Shown here piece after piece: positions 16,115 to 62,733 of a stretch of 64,000 nucleotides of DNA (position 1 is the stretch's first letter; every line of letters begins with the position of its first letter). The notes beneath the pieces are model-generated. The model had not been told where the DNA came from. It did no database searches and worked only from the letters and a program-made list of their open reading frames with translations. The DNA is from a virus: positions 62,001 to 126,000 of IMG/VR virus record IMGVR_UViG_3300037805_000644, one strand, 5' to 3'. The position numbers and the translations under genes were made by a program.

Positions 16115-19100
16115 TCAGACGATGAACCAGTTAGTTCCGTCCGAGTACACCGTTGCCGAAGCCCAGTCTGCAATGAGCACCAGAGGCGCTACGGCCCCGT
16201 CGATGGTCTCTGCCGCAGGAACCTGGATGTTGACGGCGTGGGTGGCAGCGTTGCCGACCTCGTCCTTGATGGTCACCCGACGACCAGCCGAAGCTGCGGG
16301 GAGGGTGATGTCCAGGGGGGCTGCCCCTGTGGCCGTGTCCACCCCGATGATATCCTCGGTGGTGATCACCAGGTTGACTACGGTGTGGGCATAAGGGGGG
16401 CTAACCGAAGCGGAGAGGGTGCCTGAGACAACCACATCCCCATCGAAAGTGATCTCCCCAGATGCGGAACACCGGAAGGTGCTCACATCGGGGTAAGCAC
16501 CGGGGACCTCAACGGCACCTGAGGCGAGACGCAACTCCCCCAGGGCAATCAGAAGGTCTCCAGGTGCCCCCGCCGGAACATTGTCCCCCACAACCATCAG
16601 GGCAGAAAGGGTACCCACACTGCCCGAAGTCAGCCGGAGGGTGCCGCCATTATCCGAAGCCACGATGTGGCCGGCAGAAGCTGTCGTGATACTGGATTGC
16701 ACCGTGGCGTAGTTGGTCCCGTCCGGGATGCTCACCGCAATGATGGAGCCGTCAGCAGCCTGGAGGAACAAGGTCCCCCCCGAGTTCACGGGGATGTTCC
16801 CGGGGAAAGGGTTGGCCGCGTCCAAGGTCATGGACGTGCCCGTGTCGGGGCACGCCACGATCACGACACCATGGTTGGCGTTGGCAGCGTAGCCCGGCGC
16901 CAGCAAGAGATCCCCTGCCTCACCTACCAGGTCAGTGGCGTCCATGTGGTCACCCGCACGGACCACGGCATCACCGGCAGTTCGGGCGGTTCCGGCTGCG
17001 GTGTCCAGACGTGACCCACCTGCCAGAATGGCCGAGCCCAGTTCGCCTTGGTTGGCGTCTCCGAGATCCCGGGACCCTACTTTCATGTTGTAGGCGTTGA
17101 GTTCAGTGGCTGTGCCAAGCTGAGGGCCCGCAATGACCCGAGCCACGGCATTGACCGAGGCAGCCGCGCCGTATCCGGGCGGGTACACCGTACGCCCAAA
17201 CCGCAAGATCGGACCCCCACCCCAGGTGTTGGGGTCGAGGGTGATCTCCGAGCCTTTGCCGTCCACCCCGAACGACCCGACATCAAGCTGACCTTCCACC
17301 TGGAGGCCGCCGTTGAGGTCGGCGTCAAACCCAGTGGTGAAACCGACAGGACTGCTTGCCCCGGTGATCTGCACAGCACCATCATCCGCCAGGATGGATC
17401 GCCCCAGCCCAGCGCCCAGGGTGAGGGGGCTCGGGTTTGCCAGGCCGTTGTAGGCTGTGGTGAGGCTCCAGAAGGGGGAGATGCCCAAAGGCATCACCAG
17501 ATTCAGCAGGATGTCAAGAACATCCTGGACATTCTTGTTACCCACCTGGGCCGTCGCCGGCACTGCGGGAGACACGTCTGTGCCGTCCCACCCTTGCCAG
17601 TCCCCGTCATAGCCCAGGGAGAACGCCCGGAGGGTGTGCTCCATGGTTGGGGTGCCCGTGGTGAGCAGGAACGGTGAAGGGGGCGTTGCATTGCGGGGCA
17701 TCGTGAGCCCCGAGGTGGTGACGGTGACCGCGCCCACAGCCTGGATATCATCCACCGTGATCTGGCCTGCAAGGACCACATTGGTGAGGGATACGGGAAC
17801 GCCCCCAGGCTTTGTGGCTGCACCTGCACCGAAGCCGTCCAGGACGAGGCCCTGGGCTGCGGTAGCACCCTGGAGGACGCCACCCGTGAACTGAGCCGGA
17901 CCATACACCCGAGCTGCAATACCATTGGAGGACACCAGGTCACAGTCCCGGAGGGTGATCTGGGCAGCCGGCATCTCAAAGAGGGATGCGTTGACCTCAA
18001 AGGCAGTGCGGACCGCCTTGAGATCCACGTCCACCAGCTTGACAGTGGTGGCATTGAGGTCAATCTTCAAGGCCACGTCGGTGTCAGCGTTGTCCTGGTA
18101 GCTCACCACGGAACTACTGAACAGGAGCAGGGAGGCGTAGTTGGCTCCCGTTACCGAGAGAGCGGCACCAGGCCCGATGGCCGTTGCCATTTGGGCGATG
18201 ACACAGCCCTCGGCTCGGAAGACCCCCCGATCCACCAGGAGCACAGGAGCCACAGCAGCGGCGTCAGTGTTCTCCAGACGGAGGTTCATCAGGTGGACCT
18301 GATCCGTGTCGGCCGAAGGCTGGAACCGGTGAGACTGACCCGCAGCGTTGGCCGTGCGGAGCACCACCTCGTGTGAGCCCTCAGCCGGAGTCGATGCCGA
18401 GGCCCACTGAGCCGTGCCCTCACCCATGAGGTGGATCCAGGGCTGGAAAACCAGGTCCTCAGAGTACAGACCCGGCTTGATCTTGATGAGCCAGGGCTCT
18501 CCCTGAGAGGGGGCGGGCTCACCTCGCCCAACCGAACCGGCAGCGTAAGTGATGGCCTCGCCGACGGTAGAGAAATCCCCATGCTTCTCAGCAGTGATGA
18601 TCAGCTCGTCTGCTGTACCTGAGGTGTCGGACCCAGGCAGCTCGAACGTGTTGGTCGCGTCGTCAGAGTTGGCCGTGCGGTCACGTCCCCGGTTGGAGTC
18701 CACGTACAGGACTCGACCCGAACTGGCCGTTCTGCGCATGATGCCCAGAATGCGCTGGATGTTCTCGTTCTGGATGCCGCTCCACCCCTTGGCAGACGCA
18801 TCGACCGGAATGGTGCCGGTCTCATCACGCCGCTCGCCCGCAGCAACCATCAAGATGTTGCCGAACTTGGTCTTGTAAGCGGTGCGGATGAACTGGGTGC
18901 TCTCCGTCGGCAGGCCCTGATCAACGACCAGGCGGACAAGGTAAGCACCTTCATTGTCCACGATGAAGCGGGCCGTGGAGGTGTTGGAGTTTTCGGGGGC
19001 CAGGAGGGCTGCCACTGAGGCGGTGCCGTCCGGCGCATTCGGGGTGTCGGCCAGAGTCCAGGCGTAAGTGGTTGCGGCGTCCAACGACTCCAACACCACC

Positions 19101-19204
19101 TCATTGCCCTTGCGGAGGTCCGCACGACTAACTTCCGAGAGGGGCGCCCCTACCTGGACGCCACCCGGGGTCTCATTTACTGTGCTGCGGATACGAGCGG
19201 GCAT
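16115..19204 (-). CDS. Tailspike/fibre protein with Ig-like N terminus, beta-helix centre and trimer-type C terminus (1029 aa)
   Basis: The ATG at 19204 has GGAG 5 nt upstream. Residues 35-110 look like a PKD/Ig-type domain (TTYAWTLAD, DNEGAYLVRLVVDQG). Residues about 205-505 begin with DFSTVGEAITYAA and continue through IKIKPGLYSEDLVF and WIHLMGEG, the typical opening of a pectate-lyase-like right-handed beta-helix. After that come regular short beta rungs with many Asn, Val and Gly residues. The last 95 residues (LDITLPAASAGRRVTIKDE, ending YSDGTNWFIV) match the common C-terminal domain of trimeric phage fibres and spikes. The protein is probably a receptor-binding or depolymerising spike. 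No catalytic residues can be assigned by eye. A 52-nt hairpin-bearing gap separates it from the gpI-like gene. Confidence 0.87.
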   Translation of the reverse strand: MPARIRSTVNETPGGVQVGAPLSEVSRADLRKGNEVVLESLDAATTYAWTLADTPNAPDGTASVAALLAPENSNTSTARFIVDNEGAYLVRLVVDQGLPTESTQFIRTAYKTKFGNILMVAAGERRDETGTIPVDASAKGWSGIQNENIQRILGIMRRTASSGRVLYVDSNRGRDRTANSDDATNTFELPGSDTSGTADELIITAEKHGDFSTVGEAITYAAGSVGRGEPAPSQGEPWLIKIKPGLYSEDLVFQPWIHLMGEGTAQWASASTPAEGSHEVVLRTANAAGQSHRFQPSADTDQVHLMNLRLENTDAAAVAPVLLVDRGVFRAEGCVIAQMATAIGPGAALSVTGANYASLLLFSSSVVSYQDNADTDVALKIDLNATTVKLVDVDLKAVRTAFEVNASLFEMPAAQITLRDCDLVSSNGIAARVYGPAQFTGGVLQGATAAQGLVLDGFGAGAATKPGGVPVSLTNVVLAGQITVDDIQAVGAVTVTTSGLTMPRNATPPSPFLLTTGTPTMEHTLRAFSLGYDGDWQGWDGTDVSPAVPATAQVGNKNVQDVLDILLNLVMPLGISPFWSLTTAYNGLANPSPLTLGAGLGRSILADDGAVQITGASSPVGFTTGFDADLNGGLQVEGQLDVGSFGVDGKGSEITLDPNTWGGGPILRFGRTVYPPGYGAAASVNAVARVIAGPQLGTATELNAYNMKVGSRDLGDANQGELGSAILAGGSRLDTAAGTARTAGDAVVRAGDHMDATDLVGEAGDLLLAPGYAANANHGVVIVACPDTGTSMTLDAANPFPGNIPVNSGGTLFLQAADGSIIAVSIPDGTNYATVQSSITTASAGHIVASDNGGTLRLTSGSVGTLSALMVVGDNVPAGAPGDLLIALGELRLASGAVEVPGAYPDVSTFRCSASGEITFDGDVVVSGTLSASVSPPYAHTVVNLVITTEDIIGVDTATGAAPLDITLPAASAGRRVTIKDEVGNAATHAVNIQVPAAETIDGAVAPLVLIADWASATVYSDGTNWFIV

Positions 19205-19220
19205 GGTGTCTCCATCGGGT

Positions 19221-19259
19221 TAGTCGGCCCTCACCTCACAGGTGGGTATAGGCCAACTA
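19221..19259 (-). promoter_or_regulatory. Strong RNA hairpin between the gpI-like gene and the tailspike gene
   Basis: On the minus strand, a 9-bp outer stem (TAGTTGGCC with GGCCGACTA, one T-G wobble) encloses a 5-bp inner stem (CACCT/AGGTG, 3-nt loop). The left arm begins in the TAG stop of the gpI-like gene, and the right arm ends about 8 nt before the GGAG ribosome binding site of the tailspike gene. No T-run follows, so it is not a classical terminator. It could be an RNA-processing site, an attenuator or an mRNA-stability element. Confidence 0.45.
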
Positions 19260-20687
19260 CAGGAAGAACAGGTTTGAGGCATCCTCAGCCGCAATTCCCT
19301 TGGGTTCTTGTATGCCAAGGCGGTCCACCTCGACATAATAGCTTTGCCCGGTCACCGACTCAGGCATTCGGCTATCCAGGCGCAGGATGCTGGGTGCCAC
19401 ACGCACTCCGGTCGCAGGGCCTGATGCAAACCCTACCCGCCCACCAGCAGCACCCAACACCGTCTTGAGACGATAGCTGCCTGCATTTGCCCCTGTGGCG
19501 AACGTCAGCACCTCCCCCTCAGCAGCAAGGGCCCAGTCTTGACTGGAGTCCGTGATGTCGTCCCCGCTCACTGTGGCGGACCCTGAGAGCCCTGTGGGGC
19601 TTGTGGTGTACGCCCTGGCGGTACTGTCGTCCCCCCCAGGGAACACGATGCGCTCCACCACTCGATAGCGACCCAGTTCCCGGCGGTCTGTCGAGGCCAC
19701 TGTCCCCTCTTGACCCCCGGCATGGATGCCGTTTGGTCCCGAGGTGACCACCAGAGGTGCGGCTGCCGAGATGTTGGAGAAGTCCCGGTTCACGTCCTGG
19801 AACAAGCTCCGATCTGACAGGGTCTCCCCTTGAGTGCCGGATACGCTCTTGGCGCCGTGGCAATAACGCCGGAAATCCTCGTAGTAATACGAGTGCATGT
19901 CCCAGCTCAGGGTCCCTGCAAACAGCTCACCGAAAGTCTCCGTGAATTGATGCCGGTACTCATACAGGGTGTGGGCCGGCTTCAAAGCCCTCATGACAAT
20001 TCGGACGTTCTCCATCAGGATGAAAGGATCCTCAGGGAACCGCTCCAGCCCTGACCCTGCATCGAGGTAATTTGCGCTGACCTCAAAGCAAAACTGATCG
20101 TCGAGCCCCCAAGCCGAACCTGAGCCCAGCTTCCGGGCCTCGACGGCTTTCTCCAACACCGTGTAAGCGATATCCTGAACCAGCCCGGGGTTCTCACACC
20201 TCGCCAACCCCTGGGTCGCCCTACCAACCTCAGCCAGGGACTCCTCAATGGTCCCCTTGGTTGCCCCCTGCAAGAGGAACCGGACCATGCTCTGGAGGAA
20301 CTGACGGTAAGTCAGGTCGCCCTGGAGGTCGGGGTATCCATCGGTCTGGGCATCCGGGAACACGAGCTGGCCCAGCATTTGGAACAGGAACTCCGACCGG
20401 GTGTAATCGTACATCGTATCCGCCCAGACCTCCTGAGCGGTGATCTGGAATTCTGCGATCTGTTCAGCGGCGGCCTGGAACTGGAGGGTGTAAAAGGGCC
20501 CCGTCACCTGCGAGATGTAGTTGCTCGGCAGGAGCTGGAGGAACACCTTCATGATGTTGTCCACCTGGTCTCGGACTTGCTGCTTGTGCTCCTGGGACCC
20601 TTGGGCTTTCTGATCCGTATGGACAGGGGCAGGGTTCTGGGCTACGAGCCCAGGGAGGAGGTTCTTGTTGACGGGCTTGTCTGCCAT
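19257..20687 (-). CDS. Baseplate wedge protein, gpI-like (476 aa)
   Basis: The ATG at 20687 shares one base with the TGA of the preceding gene (TGATG), so translation is coupled. The N-terminal third is helical and contains LQLLPSNYISQVTGPFYTLQ (about 50-69). Residues 225-250 read VRIVMRALKPAHTLYEYRHQ. A 'LLP' start and a 'v...lKPAHT' element are what is expected for the P2 gpI/tail-protein-I class that bridges the J protein to the fibres. The C-terminal 150 residues are extra beta-rich sequence including GEVLTFATGANAGSYRLKTV (391-410), a module also seen in the 2108- and 3755-residue proteins. The order J, GNAT-like, gpI-like, tailspike supports the assignment. The family call is by motif and order, not alignment. 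Confidence 0.72.
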   Translation of the reverse strand: MADKPVNKNLLPGLVAQNPAPVHTDQKAQGSQEHKQQVRDQVDNIMKVFLQLLPSNYISQVTGPFYTLQFQAAAEQIAEFQITAQEVWADTMYDYTRSEFLFQMLGQLVFPDAQTDGYPDLQGDLTYRQFLQSMVRFLLQGATKGTIEESLAEVGRATQGLARCENPGLVQDIAYTVLEKAVEARKLGSGSAWGLDDQFCFEVSANYLDAGSGLERFPEDPFILMENVRIVMRALKPAHTLYEYRHQFTETFGELFAGTLSWDMHSYYYEDFRRYCHGAKSVSGTQGETLSDRSLFQDVNRDFSNISAAAPLVVTSGPNGIHAGGQEGTVASTDRRELGRYRVVERIVFPGGDDSTARAYTTSPTGLSGSATVSGDDITDSSQDWALAAEGEVLTFATGANAGSYRLKTVLGAAGGRVGFASGPATGVRVAPSILRLDSRMPESVTGQSYYVEVDRLGIQEPKGIAAEDASNLFFL

Positions 20688-20699
20688 CAGTTACGCCCC
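20684..20699. repeat. 16-bp direct repeat, copy 1 (stop end of the GNAT-like gene)
   Basis: The sequence CCATCAGTTACGCCCC on the plus strand covers the last codons and stop of the GNAT-like gene and the start codon of the gpI-like gene. An identical copy lies at 21253-21268. On the minus strand it reads as a G-rich ribosome-binding stretch, a stop and an overlapping ATG. Confidence 0.9.
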
Positions 20700-21256
20700 C
20701 ACACCAAGAAACCCTCATGGGGGTACCTGCGGCGAATCGAGTTCCAAACCCTAAAGGCGGCAGGCTTAGTGGGCTCCCCTGCACATACCCCAGGCCCAAT
20801 AGCCGCTCGGTGCTTGGTGGCCATCTGAATGATCTCTGCATAAAACAGATTGCCCAGACCTCTCCGCCTCAGCTCAACATCCAGCATGGTGTGCCCGATG
20901 AACCAAAGGTTCTGGATCTGGGGGTGCTTTGAGGTCAGGGTATCGAAATCTGTGCGGCACTGGCTTGTGGTGTAGGACGCCCGCCGCCGGCGAGGCAGCG
21001 GGGGGATGCCAGACCTCACCTGCTCCATCGCATGATCGTCTTTCTCCTGGGAGGTCATATGCAGATCGGTAGCATACACCCACCCCACTGCCCGCCGACC
21101 CTCCAAAATCTTCACTACCCCTCCCTTGGGGGAGTCCTTGCGGAATACCTTGAAGTCCCGATCCAACTCCTCCGCAATCTGAGCAACTACCTGGTCAAGT
21201 TCCGCGCCCGCTTGGCGCTGCAACCACTGCCCCGCAACCCGTGTGACTGAATCCAT
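20687..21256 (-). CDS. GNAT-like N-acetyltransferase within the baseplate operon (189 aa)
   Basis: The ATG at 21256 overlaps the TGA of the J gene by one base. Residues 47-65 form a beta-hairpin-like stretch (VVKILEGRRAVGWVYATDL). Residues 117-148 (LWFIGHTMLDVELRRRGLGN and following helix) match GNAT motif A, with the acetyl-CoA pyrophosphate loop R/Q-x-x-G-x-G at R130-R-R-G133-L-G135. Residues 152-178 (IGPGVC, then TKPAAFRVWNSIRRRY) fit the motif B strand and helix. GNAT enzymes transfer an acetyl group from acetyl-CoA to an amine; the substrate here is unknown. The gene separates the J and gpI-like genes, which are normally adjacent, and is bounded by a 16-bp direct repeat, suggesting a cargo-type insertion. 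It could instead be a degenerate GNAT fold used structurally. Confidence 0.7.
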   Translation of the reverse strand: MDSVTRVAGQWLQRQAGAELDQVVAQIAEELDRDFKVFRKDSPKGGVVKILEGRRAVGWVYATDLHMTSQEKDDHAMEQVRSGIPPLPRRRRASYTTSQCRTDFDTLTSKHPQIQNLWFIGHTMLDVELRRRGLGNLFYAEIIQMATKHRAAIGPGVCAGEPTKPAAFRVWNSIRRRYPHEGFLVWGRN

Positions 21257-21268
21257 CAGTTACGCCCC
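21253..21268. repeat. 16-bp direct repeat, copy 2 (start end of the GNAT-like gene)
   Basis: This is an identical copy of CCATCAGTTACGCCCC. It spans the last codons and stop of the J gene and the overlapping start codon of the GNAT-like gene. The two copies are 569 nt apart, and the register is the same relative to stop and start codons. Confidence 0.9.
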
Positions 21269-24200
21269 TGTACCCGAGCCAAGAAATCGGTGTCCTCGTC
21301 AAAAGTGAGGTCGATCTCACCAATCTCCAGGTATTCCGTGGGACCCGGCTCAATGTTCTTGACTCCCGCATCACCCTGCACCTGGTAAGTCACCGTGTAC
21401 TGGTGATCCAGAGGGGTGTCGTCCTTGGTCAGGGACACCAAGATCCGGTTGGCTGTGATCTCCCGACGTTTCTCGATGATCTCCGCCCCGGAGGCAAACG
21501 GGTAAGCCGCCTGGAGGGTGGCGTCGTCAGAAAAACCGGGGATCTCCAAACCCTGGGCACCGATGATGAAGGCAGAACCGGACCCGTTGAGCATGGGCAC
21601 CCCGTTGATGTTCGGAGCGATCACCTTGTTCTCCAGCAGATCCTCATCTGCGAAAACGCCCCGGAACTTGGTCTCCTCACCACCACTGTCGATGGTGGAT
21701 GCCTCCAGGGGGTTCTTGAGCAACCACACGTTGACGGCACCTGAGGTGGCGTTCCAGGTATCCACAGCAAACACGTCTGAGGACTGGGTGGTTGTGATGA
21801 ACTCCCGCACCACCAGGGCACCGTCTCCCTTGGACATCTTGGTGAGGGGGACGACGGGGTAAGCTACGCCGGACACGTTCTCGATGACCCCAAGAACATC
21901 TGCCTGTCGGACGGGCTCCCCAAGCACCAGTGCGCCAAAGTAGCGGTCCAGAGCCGTTCGGATAGCCCCATCCACGGTGTCCACGGACACCCTGCGTTGG
22001 TTGGCATTCTCCAAGACCACTGTCACCGTGAGGTCCACGGGCACGTTGACCGCCTCCTTGGCGACCACATCAGCGGTGATGTGGCGATCCGGGTTAATGG
22101 CGCTCTCCGTCAGGGACACCAGCGCATTGGTGGTGTACAAAACGGTGAAGTTCTCATCGTACTTGTAGCTGATGAGCAAGGTCTGCCCCTCAGAGATCGG
22201 TGAGCCCGAGGTCACCTGGATACCCAGAGGGGTCGCGGAGTCGCCGGTGATGATGGTGTACTCAGGGGTCAGTGAGGCGAAGGGGCCAACGTAAGTCGTC
22301 GCCCCGGTCTCATCCGTGACGACCACAGAGTAAGGGTTGGCCCCGAGGCGGTTAACATACTCAACGCCATCCAGGATCACATGCTGCTCACCGGTCACCT
22401 CAATGGGCGTCCCACTCGGGATGGTATCCCCGGCATCCGTCAGGGGTTCCGTCACCTGAACATAGTCCCCAGCTTCGGTCGAGCGGCCCAGCTCCAACGG
22501 GTCGCTGGCCTGGTACAGGTCGAAGATATCTTCGTCCAGCTCACCGCTGACCTCTCCAGTCATGTCCCCCACAGAGCGGACAGGCTGCCTAGCAAAGGTG
22601 TGCTTGTTGCTTGTCCGGTAACGGTAACTGCCCTTGACCACGTCCAGCAGGCCCAGGATTGCGGGGTCATTGAGGGCGGTGTCAAGCTGGATGACGTTGT
22701 AAGCCACCACGGTGGTGTTGGTCAGGTCAAAGGTGGCGCCCTTGGTCTCGTTGACCAGCTCAATGTCGAACTCAGGGTAATCCAGCATCTCAATGATGGG
22801 GTTGTCCTCAGAGAGGCTGGGGTCAACGGCCCGGAGTCTGAGATCCTTGGGGTCCCCAACCGGCTCGAACTGCACGCCCGTCTTACTCTCAAAGGAGAAA
22901 GCAAAACTGTCCGTGACTGTGCTCAGGTTCTCCCCTCTCAGCCAGATATCCACCTTGCCGCCCACATGGCGCCCGCTCTCGTTGCGGTCTCGCTGCATGA
23001 GGGGGTGGCCGGCGTCCACCACATTGACCTGCTCGACCCCAGGGACATCCACGGCATTCTTCACGTAACCCCGGAGAGTGCCAGAGTCCACCGAAGACAG
23101 GGCGTTCATGCCCCGGGCTGCCAGGTCTCGGTTCGACTCCTCAGTCAAGCCGCCACTGATAGCCGAGTCGTTGGTGACCTCGACGCCCACGGGAGCACCC
23201 GAGACGGTGCCGTTCTGGCCTGGGGCCAGGTTGCTGCCCAGCCCCACGTCCTCAGCCTGCACGAAGGCTGTGGCAGAGTAACGGCCGGTGATCGGGTTGA
23301 AGAAAGAACCTGCACCTGAGCTGGTGATAGATACGGAGCTGGTGAGGCGGTAACCCACACCACCCAGCACCACCCTTGTGCCGATGCCGAAGCTGAGGCT
23401 CGTGGTCGGGCGGGAGCGGGTGTAGATGGTCACAGATCCTCGGGCTCGGCGACCACTCCGCCGTGTCTTCCCGTAGTTGCTCGCCAGCTTTTCAAAGGTG
23501 TTGTCAATGAGCTGCTGAACCGAGCTGGTGCTCTCCAAGAAGAACGCCTGCTTGAGTGCGATCTTGTAGTCCGACTGCTCAACCGGAATGGACACCCCAG
23601 ACAGGCTGGGGTCGTCGATGGGGAGCAACGTGGCGAAGCTGCCGGCGCGATGCAAGAAATCGATGATGAACCGCTGGCGCTCCGCCTCCGTGGAGAAGGG
23701 GTCAATGAATGTGTCCCGCAATACAGAGCCGGGCTTCACGTCAATCTGAGGCTGAGCCCGGAAAATGCTAAGCACCGTGTCACGCACGATATTCTGGCGG
23801 CTCACCGCAGGGAATGTACCGACGTTGGGGACCAACTCCAGAGGGGAACCCGACAGCTCGGGGCTAAACGCGGTCTCGTACTCGGTGCCCTCGGTGAAGT
23901 AAACCGCCGTCACCACATAGTAAACGGGATCTGACTTGGGGATGGCGTTGAAGGCCGCGTTTGGGATGGCCGGGTTGGTGGGTGAGTTGAAGCTCGCCAG
24001 CCGGTCGTGGACGAAGCTGTACCTAGAAAGGCTCCGCACTGCCTCCACCGAGATGGTTGAGCGGACTCGGGTGGTGTTGTCGGGGATCTCCAGAGCCTGA
24101 TCGAAATCAGTCTGGAGGACCGTGTCGTCCTGGTCCTCCTGGGTGGCCTTGTAGACCATGAATAGGGGGTCCGCCGCAGGGGAGCCGTCGTTGAGGGTGG

Positions 24201-24768
24201 CCACGTTGGCATCCACCGTCAGCTCCGCCAGGGTGGTCAAGTCCTCGATCTGCTCACCCGAGATAACCAGGGAGGGGTTGATGCGGGAATAGCCCTCAGC
24301 CCCACCACCGGGCTGGGTTGAGGCATAGAAGTTGTACCCGATGACCTCAGAGGCATCGAGACCATCCACAGTGACCTTAATGGCCTCGTTGAACCGCTCA
24401 AGGAACACGCCGGTGGGCTCGTCGAGGGACACTCCAAGGTCACTGTCCTGCACAAGCCGGGCAGTGATGCGGCTCGGCTTTGAGACCGTGCCGTTGGAAA
24501 AGACCGCCTTGACCTGGATGTCGTTATCTCCAGCCAAGAGCTGGATCCCGTCAGGGAAAGCAGAGGGGTTGGGCACCACGAAAGTCGTGCCCTCAAAAGC
24601 GATCAGGTCTGGATCGGAGGTGAAAGCCGCGCCACGGACAGACACCTGCATGTCCACCGTGTCCGCGTCCATCTCCCCTGAGAAGTGCCGGGAATCAATA
24701 GTAGTCGAGAAGGTGTAATCCTCTCGGAGGACTGCATCAGGACCCTCAAACTTGGGCAGGGTGGGCAT
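21256..24768 (-). CDS. Baseplate wedge protein J / gp6-like (1170 aa)
   Basis: The central segment at residues 539-600 (GGLTEESNRDLAARGMNAL, then SGTLRGYVKNAVDVPGVEQV) is the hallmark of the Baseplate_J family, whose members dimerise to form the inner ring of contractile baseplates. The region about 440-540 (SFGIGTRVVLGGVGYRLTSS) is the preceding beta domain. A C-terminal element containing VDLTVTVVLENANQRR and then VDTVDGAIRTALDRYFGALV is the usual J-type end domain. The first 300 residues and the 600-900 region are Ig-like or beta-rich additions, which make it two to three times the size of P2 gpJ. It begins 3 nt after the gp25-like gene ends, and its stop overlaps the start of the GNAT-like gene. 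Confidence 0.9.
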   Translation of the reverse strand: MPTLPKFEGPDAVLREDYTFSTTIDSRHFSGEMDADTVDMQVSVRGAAFTSDPDLIAFEGTTFVVPNPSAFPDGIQLLAGDNDIQVKAVFSNGTVSKPSRITARLVQDSDLGVSLDEPTGVFLERFNEAIKVTVDGLDASEVIGYNFYASTQPGGGAEGYSRINPSLVISGEQIEDLTTLAELTVDANVATLNDGSPAADPLFMVYKATQEDQDDTVLQTDFDQALEIPDNTTRVRSTISVEAVRSLSRYSFVHDRLASFNSPTNPAIPNAAFNAIPKSDPVYYVVTAVYFTEGTEYETAFSPELSGSPLELVPNVGTFPAVSRQNIVRDTVLSIFRAQPQIDVKPGSVLRDTFIDPFSTEAERQRFIIDFLHRAGSFATLLPIDDPSLSGVSIPVEQSDYKIALKQAFFLESTSSVQQLIDNTFEKLASNYGKTRRSGRRARGSVTIYTRSRPTTSLSFGIGTRVVLGGVGYRLTSSVSITSSGAGSFFNPITGRYSATAFVQAEDVGLGSNLAPGQNGTVSGAPVGVEVTNDSAISGGLTEESNRDLAARGMNALSSVDSGTLRGYVKNAVDVPGVEQVNVVDAGHPLMQRDRNESGRHVGGKVDIWLRGENLSTVTDSFAFSFESKTGVQFEPVGDPKDLRLRAVDPSLSEDNPIIEMLDYPEFDIELVNETKGATFDLTNTTVVAYNVIQLDTALNDPAILGLLDVVKGSYRYRTSNKHTFARQPVRSVGDMTGEVSGELDEDIFDLYQASDPLELGRSTEAGDYVQVTEPLTDAGDTIPSGTPIEVTGEQHVILDGVEYVNRLGANPYSVVVTDETGATTYVGPFASLTPEYTIITGDSATPLGIQVTSGSPISEGQTLLISYKYDENFTVLYTTNALVSLTESAINPDRHITADVVAKEAVNVPVDLTVTVVLENANQRRVSVDTVDGAIRTALDRYFGALVLGEPVRQADVLGVIENVSGVAYPVVPLTKMSKGDGALVVREFITTTQSSDVFAVDTWNATSGAVNVWLLKNPLEASTIDSGGEETKFRGVFADEDLLENKVIAPNINGVPMLNGSGSAFIIGAQGLEIPGFSDDATLQAAYPFASGAEIIEKRREITANRILVSLTKDDTPLDHQYTVTYQVQGDAGVKNIEPGPTEYLEIGEIDLTFDEDTDFLARVQGRN

Positions 24769-24771
24769 GGT

Positions 24772-25884
24772 CTATCGACCTCCGAGGAACAGGCCGTTCG
24801 AGCCCATCAGAGCGACGACCTCGGGAACCGTGAACACGGTGTTGAGTTGAATAGGTTCGGATGAGGCGTTCTGGACCCACACATCCACGAGGAACGTCGT
24901 CAGATCTTGCTCATGGGGCAGTACCTGGATGCTGAGCACCGCATACAGGCGCTCCTTGGGGCTGACCGGCTGTACCTCAGCCTGTGCCTTCTGGAGCCGC
25001 TGGTAACGGGTCAGTGCCCGCCGGATGTCATCCTGGAGGGCGGCGGCCACATTACCAATGGCCTTGCTCCCAATACGGGAGCGGATGGTGGTCCCGTACC
25101 AGTTGTGGTACGGGTTTGAGCCCCGATCCGTCAGAATCACCTTGAGGGCCGCCTGCTGGAGCAGATCCTCGTCGTCCACAAAGACGGGGTTCCCGTCCAC
25201 AGAGAACCGGATATCGTTCTCGACGTAAGTGGCGCGGCATCGAAGACACCGAGAGACCGGCACCGAGTAAGTCACCTTGATGGTGGGGTTGCTCCTAACC
25301 CTCGAAGTGAATTTGGGGGCCCTGTTGGTGATGGTGTCCGGTCGGATCTCCAGGTTCCAGGAGGGGTACAGGCGGCGTCCTCGGGCAGACCTTTGCCGGG
25401 TGTTGCCTGTGGCACCGAAACCCAGACTCTCAGCACCAGTGCCCGAGATCCTGACGAAACTATCGGGGCCCACCGTGTTGGTGTCCGAGATGAGCAGATG
25501 GCCGTTGATGTTCTCCGCCAGGGCGAGCTGGCTGGTTAGACCTTGCCGCATGAGCTTCTGAATGACCTGGTCAGCACCCCACCGGACCTTACCCGTGATG
25601 CCGAGGGAGGCCGTGAAAGACCCTGCGGGTGTCTCAATGGTGAGGGTGTCCTCACCTTGGGTGAGGGTGAACGGGCCGGAGTCGGTTGAGAAGATCTGGG
25701 CCACCGAGGAGAGCCCTGTCTGGGGGATCACCAGGCCCGGGTCATCATTGAGCATAACCCGCACGGTCCCCGCCGTCGCCACGGGCTGACGGGTCAAGAG
25801 CGTTCTGCGATCCGTGTCCAGGCGCACCACTTCCTCCACCGTCAGGTGAGGACACGCCCATCCCAGTTGAAAATCTTGGCTCAT
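24772..25884 (-). CDS. Baseplate wedge protein with C-terminal gp25-like domain (370 aa)
   Basis: The C-terminal part, residues 250-360 (TDRGSNPYHNWYGTTIRSRI, then the helix NVAAALQDDIRRALTRYQRL and strands ending TFLVDVWVQ), follows the gp25/gpW wedge pattern of 'LltdrG..p.yGt.l...i'. The N-terminal 180 residues are a separate beta-rich domain. A CxxC pair (C213-L-R-C216) followed by YVENDIRFSVDGN, together with C11-P-H13, may bind a metal. T4 gp25 is about 130 residues, so this is an expanded form. It is the first gene of the leftward wedge cluster, with a divergent intergenic region upstream and the J gene 3 nt downstream. Confidence 0.83.
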   Translation of the reverse strand: MSQDFQLGWACPHLTVEEVVRLDTDRRTLLTRQPVATAGTVRVMLNDDPGLVIPQTGLSSVAQIFSTDSGPFTLTQGEDTLTIETPAGSFTASLGITGKVRWGADQVIQKLMRQGLTSQLALAENINGHLLISDTNTVGPDSFVRISGTGAESLGFGATGNTRQRSARGRRLYPSWNLEIRPDTITNRAPKFTSRVRSNPTIKVTYSVPVSRCLRCRATYVENDIRFSVDGNPVFVDDEDLLQQAALKVILTDRGSNPYHNWYGTTIRSRIGSKAIGNVAAALQDDIRRALTRYQRLQKAQAEVQPVSPKERLYAVLSIQVLPHEQDLTTFLVDVWVQNASSEPIQLNTVFTVPEVVALMGSNGLFLGGR

Positions 25885-29125: not shown

Positions 29126-32100
29126 TCAAAGGACATCGGGCTCATCATCCGGTGGGGGATTGTTGGGGGCTTCCAGATTCTCCAAGCCAAACAGTGGCCC
29201 TGGGGATGTGACACTGGCGTCCTGTTTGGGGTCACTGTCTTGCCCCATTGCCACTTGCAGCAACTCGATCAGAAAAGTCGGAGCACCACCCGCCAACACC
29301 GCCACCCCTCCTCCATAGGCGGCAAGCTCACGCGCTTCATCGAGCATGGTCTGCGTGACGGGTGCGCCCACCGCGGGGTCAAGCGCGGCGGCCTGCTCGA
29401 CAGCGATGCGCTCCGCCTGCTCGCGCTTCCCTCCTCCATAGGCGAGGGGGCTGTCTGAGGGCTTGTTGTCCGCCGTGATGAACTGCCGGGTGATGTCGTC
29501 AGTGCCCTGGCCCACCAGCAGCAACCCCGAGCATTGGGGGATCCCCACGGTGAACCCAAGGATGCTCTGAATCAGGGAGTTCAACCTACGGATCAGGTTC
29601 TGCAACTCGACGATGCGGTCCTCCACGAACTCGATGTACTGGACAATGGCGTCCGTCACCGACTTGATGGACTCCGCCAAGGCATCAAGCCATTGCTGGA
29701 GGGTTTCAAAGAACCCGTCCAGAGCAGGGAAACTGTCGAGGAAACGGATAGCGATCCACTCCCCGTCTTGGGGGTGGCGGAGTCCCGCAGCAGCGGCCAC
29801 ACCCAACACCAAGGCCGACTGGGAGTACAAGAGGCCACCCTCCCACTCCCGGAACATGGTCCGCAGGTACCGGGCGCCGAACGCGTCCTGAACATTAACG
29901 GGGACCACCCCCGTTTGGGCTGCCGCCCTCATCTTGTCCGCCCCGAAATAGAACACTGGAGACAGGTCCGCCGAGCCGACTTTCCTCTCCTGGGCCGCCA
30001 AGGCGTCCATGTAGGACAGGACCTTGGTGGGCACCAGGATGGAGCCGTCTGCCTGGAGGTACTTCTCGTAAAACATGCGGAGGGAAGGTGGGGAGTCTGC
30101 AAGAACTTGGAGCGCCGAACTCGCTGGAATCTGGCCCTTCACCTCCCAGTCAGCCACGTCTGCCGGGGTGACCTCAATGAAGTCGCCTTTGCGGCCTCGA
30201 ATAACATCGGGGATCCCTGCCGACATCAGCTTGCCCACCAGGGCCTCAGGCACCTCCATGCTGTAAGGGTTGGGGGCGAAACCGATGCTTCGCCAGGCCC
30301 CGAGCTGGGGGGCTGGCTCTGTGGACAAGTTCGGGAACTCAGGGGGCTTATCCACTGAGGCCGCCAGATCGTTGTTCCGTTGCTTCAAAGCCAGCGTTTC
30401 AGTGTCCAGCTCAGTGCTCAGGGCAGCAAGCAGCAAGAAATCAGCAGAGGCATCGTTCATGCTGGGAAGGTCGGAGATCCGCCTCATCTCCTTAATGGCT
30501 CCGGTCTCCCCAACCCCGAGGAGCAAAGCCTGCACGCTGGCTTCGTTTCGCATCTCCAGAGTGTTCTGGGCGATGAACTCATGAAGCTCGGGACGGGCAC
30601 CAAGTTTGTCGCACAGCTCCTTGGCAAAACCCCGCACCCGGGTCAGCAGCTCCTGGCGGAACCTCTGTGGGTTTTGACCCTTGGTCTCGATGAACTGCTT
30701 GAACCCTCCGGGGAACATCTGCTCCAGAAGGCCCTTGTAAGGCTCCAAACCCGTGGCCAGGAGTGCCACCCCGGGGATGAGCTTCTTGTGCTCCTTAGCC
30801 AGCTCAATAGCCTCCTCTGGCCACCCCTCCACCTCGTCGATGAGGGGGAGATCGGAACGGCTCAGGACCAGCACCATCAGGGCAATCGACACAGCGTCGA
30901 GGAAATCTCCGGTGTTGGAGTTAGGGATGGTGGCCTTGAATGCGGGACTCCAGGCTGACCTCTTCGCCTGCCCCTTTTGGGGGATACGGAACAGCTCCCC
31001 CGGGTTGTTTCCCAGGTCCCGGACCTTAGAGAAATCCAGGGCATAACTCTTGCTGATCGTCCGATCTCCGAGTGGGGTCGCCAAGGTGTACTCTGCATTA
31101 TCGGTGGAGGCGATGCGGACATAGTAAGTGCTCAGCCGGCCGAGGTCCCGGACAGTGACCTGGCCGGTCAGGTTGTCCACTTTGAACTCAGCATCATGAG
31201 GCAGGTCATCGAAATTGAGGACCAGGCTGTACTCCTGCTTGACCCAGGCACTGATCTGCCCGGGGTCCACCGCAAAGGTCCGTTGGAGCAGGTAAGGGTT
31301 GTCGATGTCCTCACCCTCTCTGAGCAGATCGAGATCGATGACCTCCCCCGAGGCGCGGCTCTTCAACCCATAAACGGCGGTGTGGCCGTCCCGGAACTGG
31401 TTTGGCCCCTCAACAACACTGTTCCAGGAGTGCTCATCCAGGGGACCGTCAAGCATATCGGACCCACCGTACAGGATGTAAGGCTGACCCTTCCTGTCGA
31501 GGACCTTACCGGCCTCCCGTGAGGACCGGCGTGCCGTGTCACCACCCTCGGGCTCTCTCTTCTTGGCGTCGTTCTCGGGCCGGTTGAAGGCAAGGGGGAT
31601 CCCCTCCTCCCGTGTGCCGACGGTCACCAGGAATCCCTGAGGCCCCACCGGAGGGAACGGGTTGAACGGGCTCGTCAGGTTGGTCGGCTGGACTTTCCAG
31701 GTGATCTTCACCTTCTCAGGTGGGGTGTCCTCAAAACGCACCAGGTTCTCGAACGAGTCAAAAACATCACCGTTGGCCTGGGTCCCAAACTGGATCCCCG
31801 TGACGATGGGCACCGGGGGTGTGCCTGAGGGGTTGAAGCTCTGATTGAACAGGTCCAGGAGTTGTTCAACGAACTGCACCAGCCGGGAGATCCCACTGTA
31901 GTCTACCGAGAGATAAAAGAAAGCCCCGAGCACGGAGGCGTTGCCTGAGATGTCGGGTCGGGTGGGGTCGGTCTTGTCGGTGAGGCGGGCGATCATCCGC
32001 CGCTCGTACTCCGAGTAACCACCCCGGAGATCCTGATAGGGGCTCTCCAAGAGAGCCCAATCACCCGTGATGTAGATCCCCAAGTTTTGGAGATCTGCCA

Positions 32101-61827: not shown

Positions 61828-62733
61828 ATGCCCGAGAGAAAAGATAACAGCCGAGTCAGCTCAAATGAGTTCGTCATCCTCCACCACATCAACCAAATGG
61901 CAGGCGGGACGGCTCGCCCCATCGTGGTTGAAGATCTTCGGGTGGCCTGTGACGTGGGTCCTTACTTTGACGCCAACCTCACCACACTGCATGAGACTCG
62001 GGGGGTCATCCACCTGGTGAACGTGGAGGGCGGGACCACCTGGGTCAACCTGTCCGACCAGGGTCGAGAGATTCTTGGGAATTATGGTCCGGGTTGGGAT
62101 CCCACAGCGCACTTTTACCAGGGCCACATCGGAACCGCTGTAGTGATCTGCGATGTCCTCCGGGAATTGGGCCGTGAGACCGACCTGGAAGAACTCGTCA
62201 GGCTGACGGGCTGGAAAACGGTCGGCAGCAAGATCAGAGACTGGGAGCTGGATCACGCAGGCGTTGTCCTCATCGGGAAAAAGAACACCGGACGCTGCCT
62301 CACCTACCAGCTTATCGGGAACCCCACCCCCCAGGAAGCTTACGCCCGGATCGACGCCCAGCGGGAGATTCGGAAGGCTCGGAAGGCGGCGAAGAGGGCG
62401 GCAGCAGAGGCTTTGGTGATCGAGGCCGACACCCCGATCACCAAAGCCTCCGCCCTATGGGCCGCCCAGCTCTGGAAAACGAAACCAGCGGGCACCGAGA
62501 CGAAAGGGGAGGAGGATCTGGATCTCCTGGTGAACTCCCTCCCGGATAGCCCGGAAACTCTGCACACCTCTCAGGGGTACAGCATTCAGGTTCTCCTGAC
62601 CCGAGCCGTCCGTGTGGAGGGGGTTCATTTCACCACTCCGGCCGGCACACCCCTTTTGGCAGATAACCTGTCGGAGAAAGAGGCCCGCTCCCTACTTGAT
62701 GTTTTTCGGGAAACCCTGAAAAACATCAAGTAG
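61828..62733 (+). CDS. Putative winged-helix-type DNA-binding protein (301 aa)
   Basis: The ATG at 61828 has AAGGG about 7 nt upstream. Residues 12-85 (NEFVILHHINQMAGGTARPI, then VVEDLRVACDV, LTTLHETRGVIHLV, TTWVNLSDQGREIL) look like a winged-helix domain with a wing and terminal helix. Residues 95-165 (GTAVVICDVLRELGRETDLE to YQLIG) may be a second, similar unit. A basic helix (AREIRKARKAAKRAAAEALV type, about 173-195) follows, then an acidic segment and a short beta region. No catalytic motif is visible. A regulatory or DNA-binding role is inferred from fold pattern and from its place downstream of the tandem-HTH gene. Confidence 0.72.
   Translation: MPERKDNSRVSSNEFVILHHINQMAGGTARPIVVEDLRVACDVGPYFDANLTTLHETRGVIHLVNVEGGTTWVNLSDQGREILGNYGPGWDPTAHFYQGHIGTAVVICDVLRELGRETDLEELVRLTGWKTVGSKIRDWELDHAGVVLIGKKNTGRCLTYQLIGNPTPQEAYARIDAQREIRKARKAAKRAAAEALVIEADTPITKASALWAAQLWKTKPAGTETKGEEDLDLLVNSLPDSPETLHTSQGYSIQVLLTRAVRVEGVHFTTPAGTPLLADNLSEKEARSLLDVFRETLKNIK

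Follow-up and report, generated by a model that had tools for sequence, protein, structure and literature searches.

A GNAT-like gene framed by a 16-bp junction repeat in a high-turnover slot between baseplate genes of a huge phage

In a group of very large phages, the junction between the baseplate gene J and the gpI-like gene is a slot where accessory genes turn over at a high rate, and in the virus studied here it holds a single acetyltransferase-like (GNAT-like) gene. The virus is represented by a 64,000-nt stretch (hereafter, the window) covering positions 62,001 to 126,000 of the IMG/VR record IMGVR_UViG_3300037805_000644. The GNAT-like protein is homologous to part of a multi-enzyme, polyvalent protein of the same phage, shares with it a tag (RVAxxW) that is enriched in such proteins, and its gene is framed at both junctions by a 16-bp repeat that is unique in the record. 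We lean toward a reading in which these features belong together: the gene would be a solo cargo of the slot, kin to the polyvalent GNAT and bearing the same tag, the repeat would stem from its gain or from replacement of an earlier cargo, and the product would travel in the virion. The GNAT-like protein is probably a solo, virion-delivered effector in an exchangeable slot; its delivery, its enzyme activity and the function of its tag are what we infer.

Results

The baseplate neighborhood and its extra gene

The features are collected in Table 1. J matches Pfam PF04865 Baseplate_J with 55.4 bits (cut-off 21.1), and the gp25-like gene matches PHROG baseplate wedge families (best E 6.7e-06), with Pfam PF10934 below the cut-off (27.3 bits; cut-off 32.9). 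The gpI-like gene has zero Pfam or PHROG matches at E 0.1; its name is positional, taken from an earlier, sequence-only reading of the window, and the gene stays beside J in relatives. In LR745208.1 (L023:5938-11229), the gpI-like protein is the beginning of a 1,763-aa ORF.

Table 1. Features at the J/gpI junction (window positions).
Feature	Position	Strand	Remark
Sheath-initiator / gp25-like baseplate wedge gene, 370 aa	24772..25884	-	upstream of J
Baseplate J gene, 1170 aa	21256..24768	-	ends ...VQGRN (stop)
16-bp repeat, J-side copy	21253..21268	.	J end, TGATG overlap, GNAT-like start; probably older
N-terminal tag RVAGQWLQR, residues 6-14 of GNAT-like protein	21215..21241	-	
GNAT-like accessory gene, 189 aa	20687..21256	-	R130xxG133xG135 motif
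16-bp repeat, gpI-side copy	20684..20699	.	GNAT-like end, TGATG overlap, gpI start; probably derived
gpI-like gene, 476 aa	19257..20687	-	after J in relatives

Direct profile matches of the GNAT-like protein are weak (Acetyltransf_CG, 12.7 bits, cut-off 30): it missed the curated GNAT profile cut-off, gave no Pfam or PHROGs match at E 0.1 and found no GNAT among NCBIfam models. Its sole match among solved structures was a weak GNAT (E 0.75), and a single-sequence structure prediction reached a mean pLDDT of 36.6, too low for use. The label 'GNAT-like' draws support from homology with a GNAT domain encoded at another place in this phage, namely residues 605-695 of a 2,346-aa ORF (30% identity over 91 aa; blastp 5e-11 and phmmer 1.4e-11 as a single comparison, 4e-10 genome-wide), where Acetyltransf_1 scores 22.1 bits, above the Pfam cut-off of 20.7. 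GNATs carry an acetyl-CoA loop motif, R/QxxGxG/A; in the window protein it is present as R130-RR-G133-L-G135, and R130, G133 and G135 are found in the 2,346-aa ORF as well.

Searches by short patterns and tblastn, which distant kin may escape, found no relatives by sequence in viral contigs, genome contigs, phages or plasmids, and the stretch 18000-25884 has no DNA similarity to phage records. Foreign composition was considered and rejected, the GC content, GC3 and codon use of the gene falling within or near the values spanned by 17 other ORFs of the window. A self-mobile element was likewise rejected: the insert is one 189-aa frame without a recombinase gene, and 10 inverted-repeat pairs were detected, none with arms at both insert ends.

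Kinship with polyvalent proteins

The 2,346-aa ORF (G000:185672-192712; L022:1673-8713, minus strand) combines a topoisomerase I core with the GNAT domain and a phosphoribosyltransferase below the cut-off, and the adjoining 1,012-aa ORF (G000:192709-195747; L022:8710-11748, minus strand) combines 2'-5' RNA ligase and ART-PolyVal domains, both above the cut-off. This is the architecture named polyvalent proteins in the sections of PMC5512222 that describe them. In a 402-kb relative, a single 1,706-aa ORF (L027:5364-10484, minus strand) joins 2'-5' RNA ligase and topoisomerase I domains; their distribution over two ORFs in the window's phage and one in L027 is a case of domain reshuffling. Polyvalent proteins hold several disparate domains; the GNAT-like protein, with 189 aa and one recognizable domain, is not itself of this type.

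In the relevant sections of Iyer et al. 2017 (PMC5512222), polyvalent proteins are inferred to be injected, GNATs occur within them, two GNAT families are given, and a solo mycobacteriophage GNAT adjoins late structural genes. In its passage on such GNATs, a jumbo-phage review proposes that they alter host proteins, for example RNA polymerase (PMC7824862).

A short tag shared with the polyvalent ORFs

The motif RVAxx[WYF], picked after these proteins had been seen, was counted in three polyvalent ORFs, two from the window's phage and one from the 402-kb relative, with 10 occurrences in 5,064 aa (shuffled mean 0.40; 0/300 shuffles as high). Its reversed form occurs once in the same three ORFs, and 21 other window ORFs (19,021 aa) contain no RVAxx[WYF]. 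A narrower form of the tag lies within the first 45 residues of 8 of the 1,052 distinct ORFs of the loci covered by this count (reversed form, 1); the window gene is one of the eight, and at least two others (L157, L010) may be tail genes. Tagged ART-type or ART-PolyVal frames were seen a few genes past J in L174 and L181, the ART reading of L174 being made by eye without a Pfam match, and most slot genes are without the tag. A degenerate DNA pattern for the tag gave 13 matches against 7 for the reversed control in 4 records, which is not decisive.

As a tentative suggestion, which we rate as doubtful, RVAxxW could be a modular virion-loading or release tag in a large huge-phage group, marking solo effectors and separating the domains of polyvalent proteins, with the J/gpI junction as one exchange site at which the tag stays. 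Neither such a junction repeat nor such a tag was found in the literature examined, the tag letters themselves not being among the queries. If the preferred reading of the gene is right, a short shared tag would serve as a sequence handle predicting which of the many unknown huge-phage proteins enter the host. The tie between slot cargo and polyvalent proteins, made by homology and by the tag they have in common, offers the more useful lead.

The J/gpI junction as an exchangeable slot

Relatives were surveyed by alignment-based scans covering the best 80 of 311 J and the best 80 of 125 gpI matches together with earlier loci; loci without both genes, those with a J match below 900 residues and duplicate junctions were dropped. 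Among the resulting 90 non-redundant junctions (near copies L150 and L166 both counted; L226, a later find, outside), 20 were occupied (gap of 150 nt or more), one was a remnant and 69 were classed as other, being empty or short; 'empty' denotes a gap below 150 nt, which here takes in gaps of no more than 101 nt and overlaps of no more than 104 nt. The J tree requires at least 16 slot changes; for 'occupied', well-supported branches force 15 of them. The slot labels are mildly clustered (44/500 shuffles as low for 'occupied').

The five rows of the window's own clade (support 99) show five states: the GNAT-like gene, a scar, a protease-like frame (L007), a 94-aa frame (L112) and an 84-aa frame (L115). 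L180 and L177 have near-identical J genes, yet a 2.1-kb insert with a methyltransferase-like frame (below the cut-off) is found in L180 only. Other occupants include a TnpB-like gene (L138:4661-5863; OrfB_IS605, E 2e-28), a family of small frames, with three related members in tandem in L137 (4411-5306) and single kin in L139 and L060, and a frame weakly like ParB in L226 (16.1 bits, cut-off 23.6). No relative of the GNAT-like gene was found at the J/gpI junction of the other rows. The survey supports the view that the gene is an accessory insertion at this junction. If this is right, the junction would be a mapped slot where related phages swap cargos while their tail genes remain unbroken.

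The nearest relatives are two IMG/VR records of 402,383 bp, with 79% identity in J and 80% in the gpI-like gene, the values for L005. Both lack the GNAT-like gene; J and the gpI-like gene are separated by 95 bp with a frame of 27-28 aa (MGKDAAIRVARGYLARKDSENLALEMM). In L007 (59%), the slot holds a 273-aa frame with HELTH, to which the frame of L071 is 49% identical; neither has Pfam matches, and both are called protease-like here by their HExxH motif. The short L005 frame resembles the N-termini of the L007 and L071 proteins (0/1000 shuffles as high each). At the DNA level, shuffles scored as high for its 5' part in 0/300 cases against L071, 49/300 against L007 and 26/300 against the GNAT-like gene, and for its 3' part in 15/300 against L007 and 99/300 against L071; the 3' part also has an 11-bp exact match to L007 at the corresponding end. 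With moderate confidence, we regard the 95-bp stretch of L005 as the probable scar of a protease-like cargo. The GNAT-like protein matches the scar less closely (25/1000 shuffles as high), and its N-terminus resembles that of the protease-like protein of L071 (0/1000).

Origin of the junction repeat

The sequence-only reading had placed one 16-mer at both stop/start overlaps bounding the GNAT-like gene, and its coordinates and layout are borne out. The sequence CCATCAGTTACGCCCC, which on the coding (minus) strand reads GGGGCGTAACTGATGG in both copies, comprises at each site the end of one gene (GRN and stop), a TGATG overlap and the start of the next gene, J ending in ...VQGRN and the GNAT-like gene in ...VWGRN. 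The ungapped match between the copies is 16 nt, with no similarity beyond. A 16-mer that was a common junction sequence elsewhere in the genome would have counted against that reading; the 222,939-bp record contains no third copy, and none appears when one mismatch is allowed.

The same reading had proposed that the cassette was gained by duplication of the junction, so that excision between the copies would leave J and gpI coupled as in other phages. A one-base stop/start overlap (TGATG or TAATG) was found in 25 of the 41 compact junctions (gap of -5 to 10), and deletion between the repeats would therefore give back the commonest compact form, as anticipated. The proposal holds insofar as the gene is an accessory insertion and empty junctions usually couple J directly to gpI. 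The expected empty site with one intact 16-mer did not turn up: none of the 41 compact junctions has it, and the longest common stretch is 9 nt (L129). The exact 16-mer is also present in 37 IMG/VR stretches, none of which encodes J, gpI or the GNAT-like protein; in 29 of them the ATG of the 16-mer opens a frame of two codons only.

The two junctions of each of the other 18 occupied slots have 5-8 nt in common, which is within the shuffle range, and nine aligned insert/empty pairs show no comparable repeat, just short sharing of the GATGGC type. Since the window's slot is alone among 19 occupied slots in having a 16-nt flanking repeat, such framing is peculiar to this genome, and, given the 5-8 nt of the others, long junction duplication is not the usual way in which the slot is filled. 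The J-side copy resembles the end of J in L005 (GGG...AAC...TGATGG, with a 3-nt insertion), the gpI sides differ, and the match of the GNAT-like protein to the 2,346-aa ORF stops at residue 187, before the final RN. The gpI-side copy thus appears to be derived and the J-side copy older, although the repeat is known from one genome, so that mechanism and direction rest on a single case.

Local duplication is a plausible but unproven way for the gene to have been gained; that it replaced an earlier cargo bearing the tag is a serious competing reading. Because the nearest relative is scarred and the four other rows of the clade are occupied or scarred, an older cargo may as likely have been replaced here as a first cargo gained. 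In its specific form, which we consider unlikely, an ancestral HExxH protease-like cargo was swapped for the GNAT-like cargo by recombination with another phage, one crossover falling within the tag region, the second within the donor's J-end/gpI-start, so that the repeat would represent two related J ends without any insertion duplication. The L005 scar and the intact protease-like gene of L007, both within the five-row clade, speak for such a swap, as do the tag region common to different cargos and the similar J-end/gpI-start sequences of compact relatives such as L129 and L119; however, 16 nt of identity without similarity outside fits a local copy better, and the donor was not found.

Selection of the same translation-coupling sequence at both junctions is an improbable source of the repeat. 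Compact J/gpI junctions often contain TGATGG, and at least two contigs with neither J nor gpI (L216, L218) have the 16-mer at the stop/start of two longer frames. Among 22 gene-start contexts that we picked from the window (231 pairs), however, the repeat pair has 16 nt in common and the runner-up 9, and the other occupied slots stay at 5-8 nt.

Slightly less probable still is a role of the GNAT-like protein as a fixed part of the baseplate in its lineage and not as an effector: the gene does lie between baseplate genes and is coupled to them, but the J/gpI junctions of the other rows lack it, and its homologous domain sits in a multi-enzyme ORF.

Exact 16-nt direct pairs number 4 in the window, against 0.85 expected (20 first-order Markov simulations), and 2 at distances of up to 2 kb, against 0.05 expected. 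A second close repeat of this kind, CCCTCCTCCATAGGCG, occurs at window positions 29306 and 29429 within a long minus-strand ORF. Finding some 16-mer pair within 64 kb is unremarkable; finding two nearby copies at matching gene junctions is remarkable. Coincidence is accordingly a very remote prospect: 0.85 such pairs are expected somewhere in 64 kb, but 0.05 within 2 kb, and the copies stand in register at both ends of one inserted gene.

Discussion

Under the preferred reading, the GNAT-like gene was gained or took the place of an earlier cargo with a tag, and in that event the final bases of J, together with TGATG, would have come to stand at its 3' end as well. J would thereby keep the end native to it, and the start context of gpI would still look native. 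The gene would be translated late, together with the baseplate genes, and its product would be carried in the virion by means of its tag, to acetylate a host target early in infection.

The arrangement can be set against three known systems. Like a phage moron, the GNAT-like gene is a single extra gene between conserved genes, sporadic among relatives, whose neighbors are intact. Morons, by definition, have their own promoter and terminator. No promoter-like site was found at the GNAT-like gene with a sigma-70-type consensus, the only one used, and a single terminator-like site, on the plus strand, compares with 0.7 expected by chance. In these two respects the gene differs from a moron; it is, moreover, translationally coupled to its neighbors and framed by a 16-bp junction repeat.

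With the solo GNATs, as treated in the pertinent sections of Iyer et al. 2017 (PMC5512222), the gene has in common its kinship to the GNAT of a multi-enzyme phage protein and its place among late structural genes; it differs from what is described there in occupying a slot with unrelated cargos and in carrying a short tag common to large proteins.

The third comparison concerns how such a protein might enter the virion. Alt and the internal proteins of T4 have capsid targeting sequences, and in what the source relates of them these resemble the present case in being a short N-terminal sequence common to different proteins thought to be carried in the head (PMC5694885). Unlike them, the RVAxxW tag is also found inside large proteins. 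The T4 capsid targeting sequence is not known to resemble the tag. By analogy, the tag may nevertheless play a role like that of the T4 sequences, as far as this role is set out in PMC5694885.
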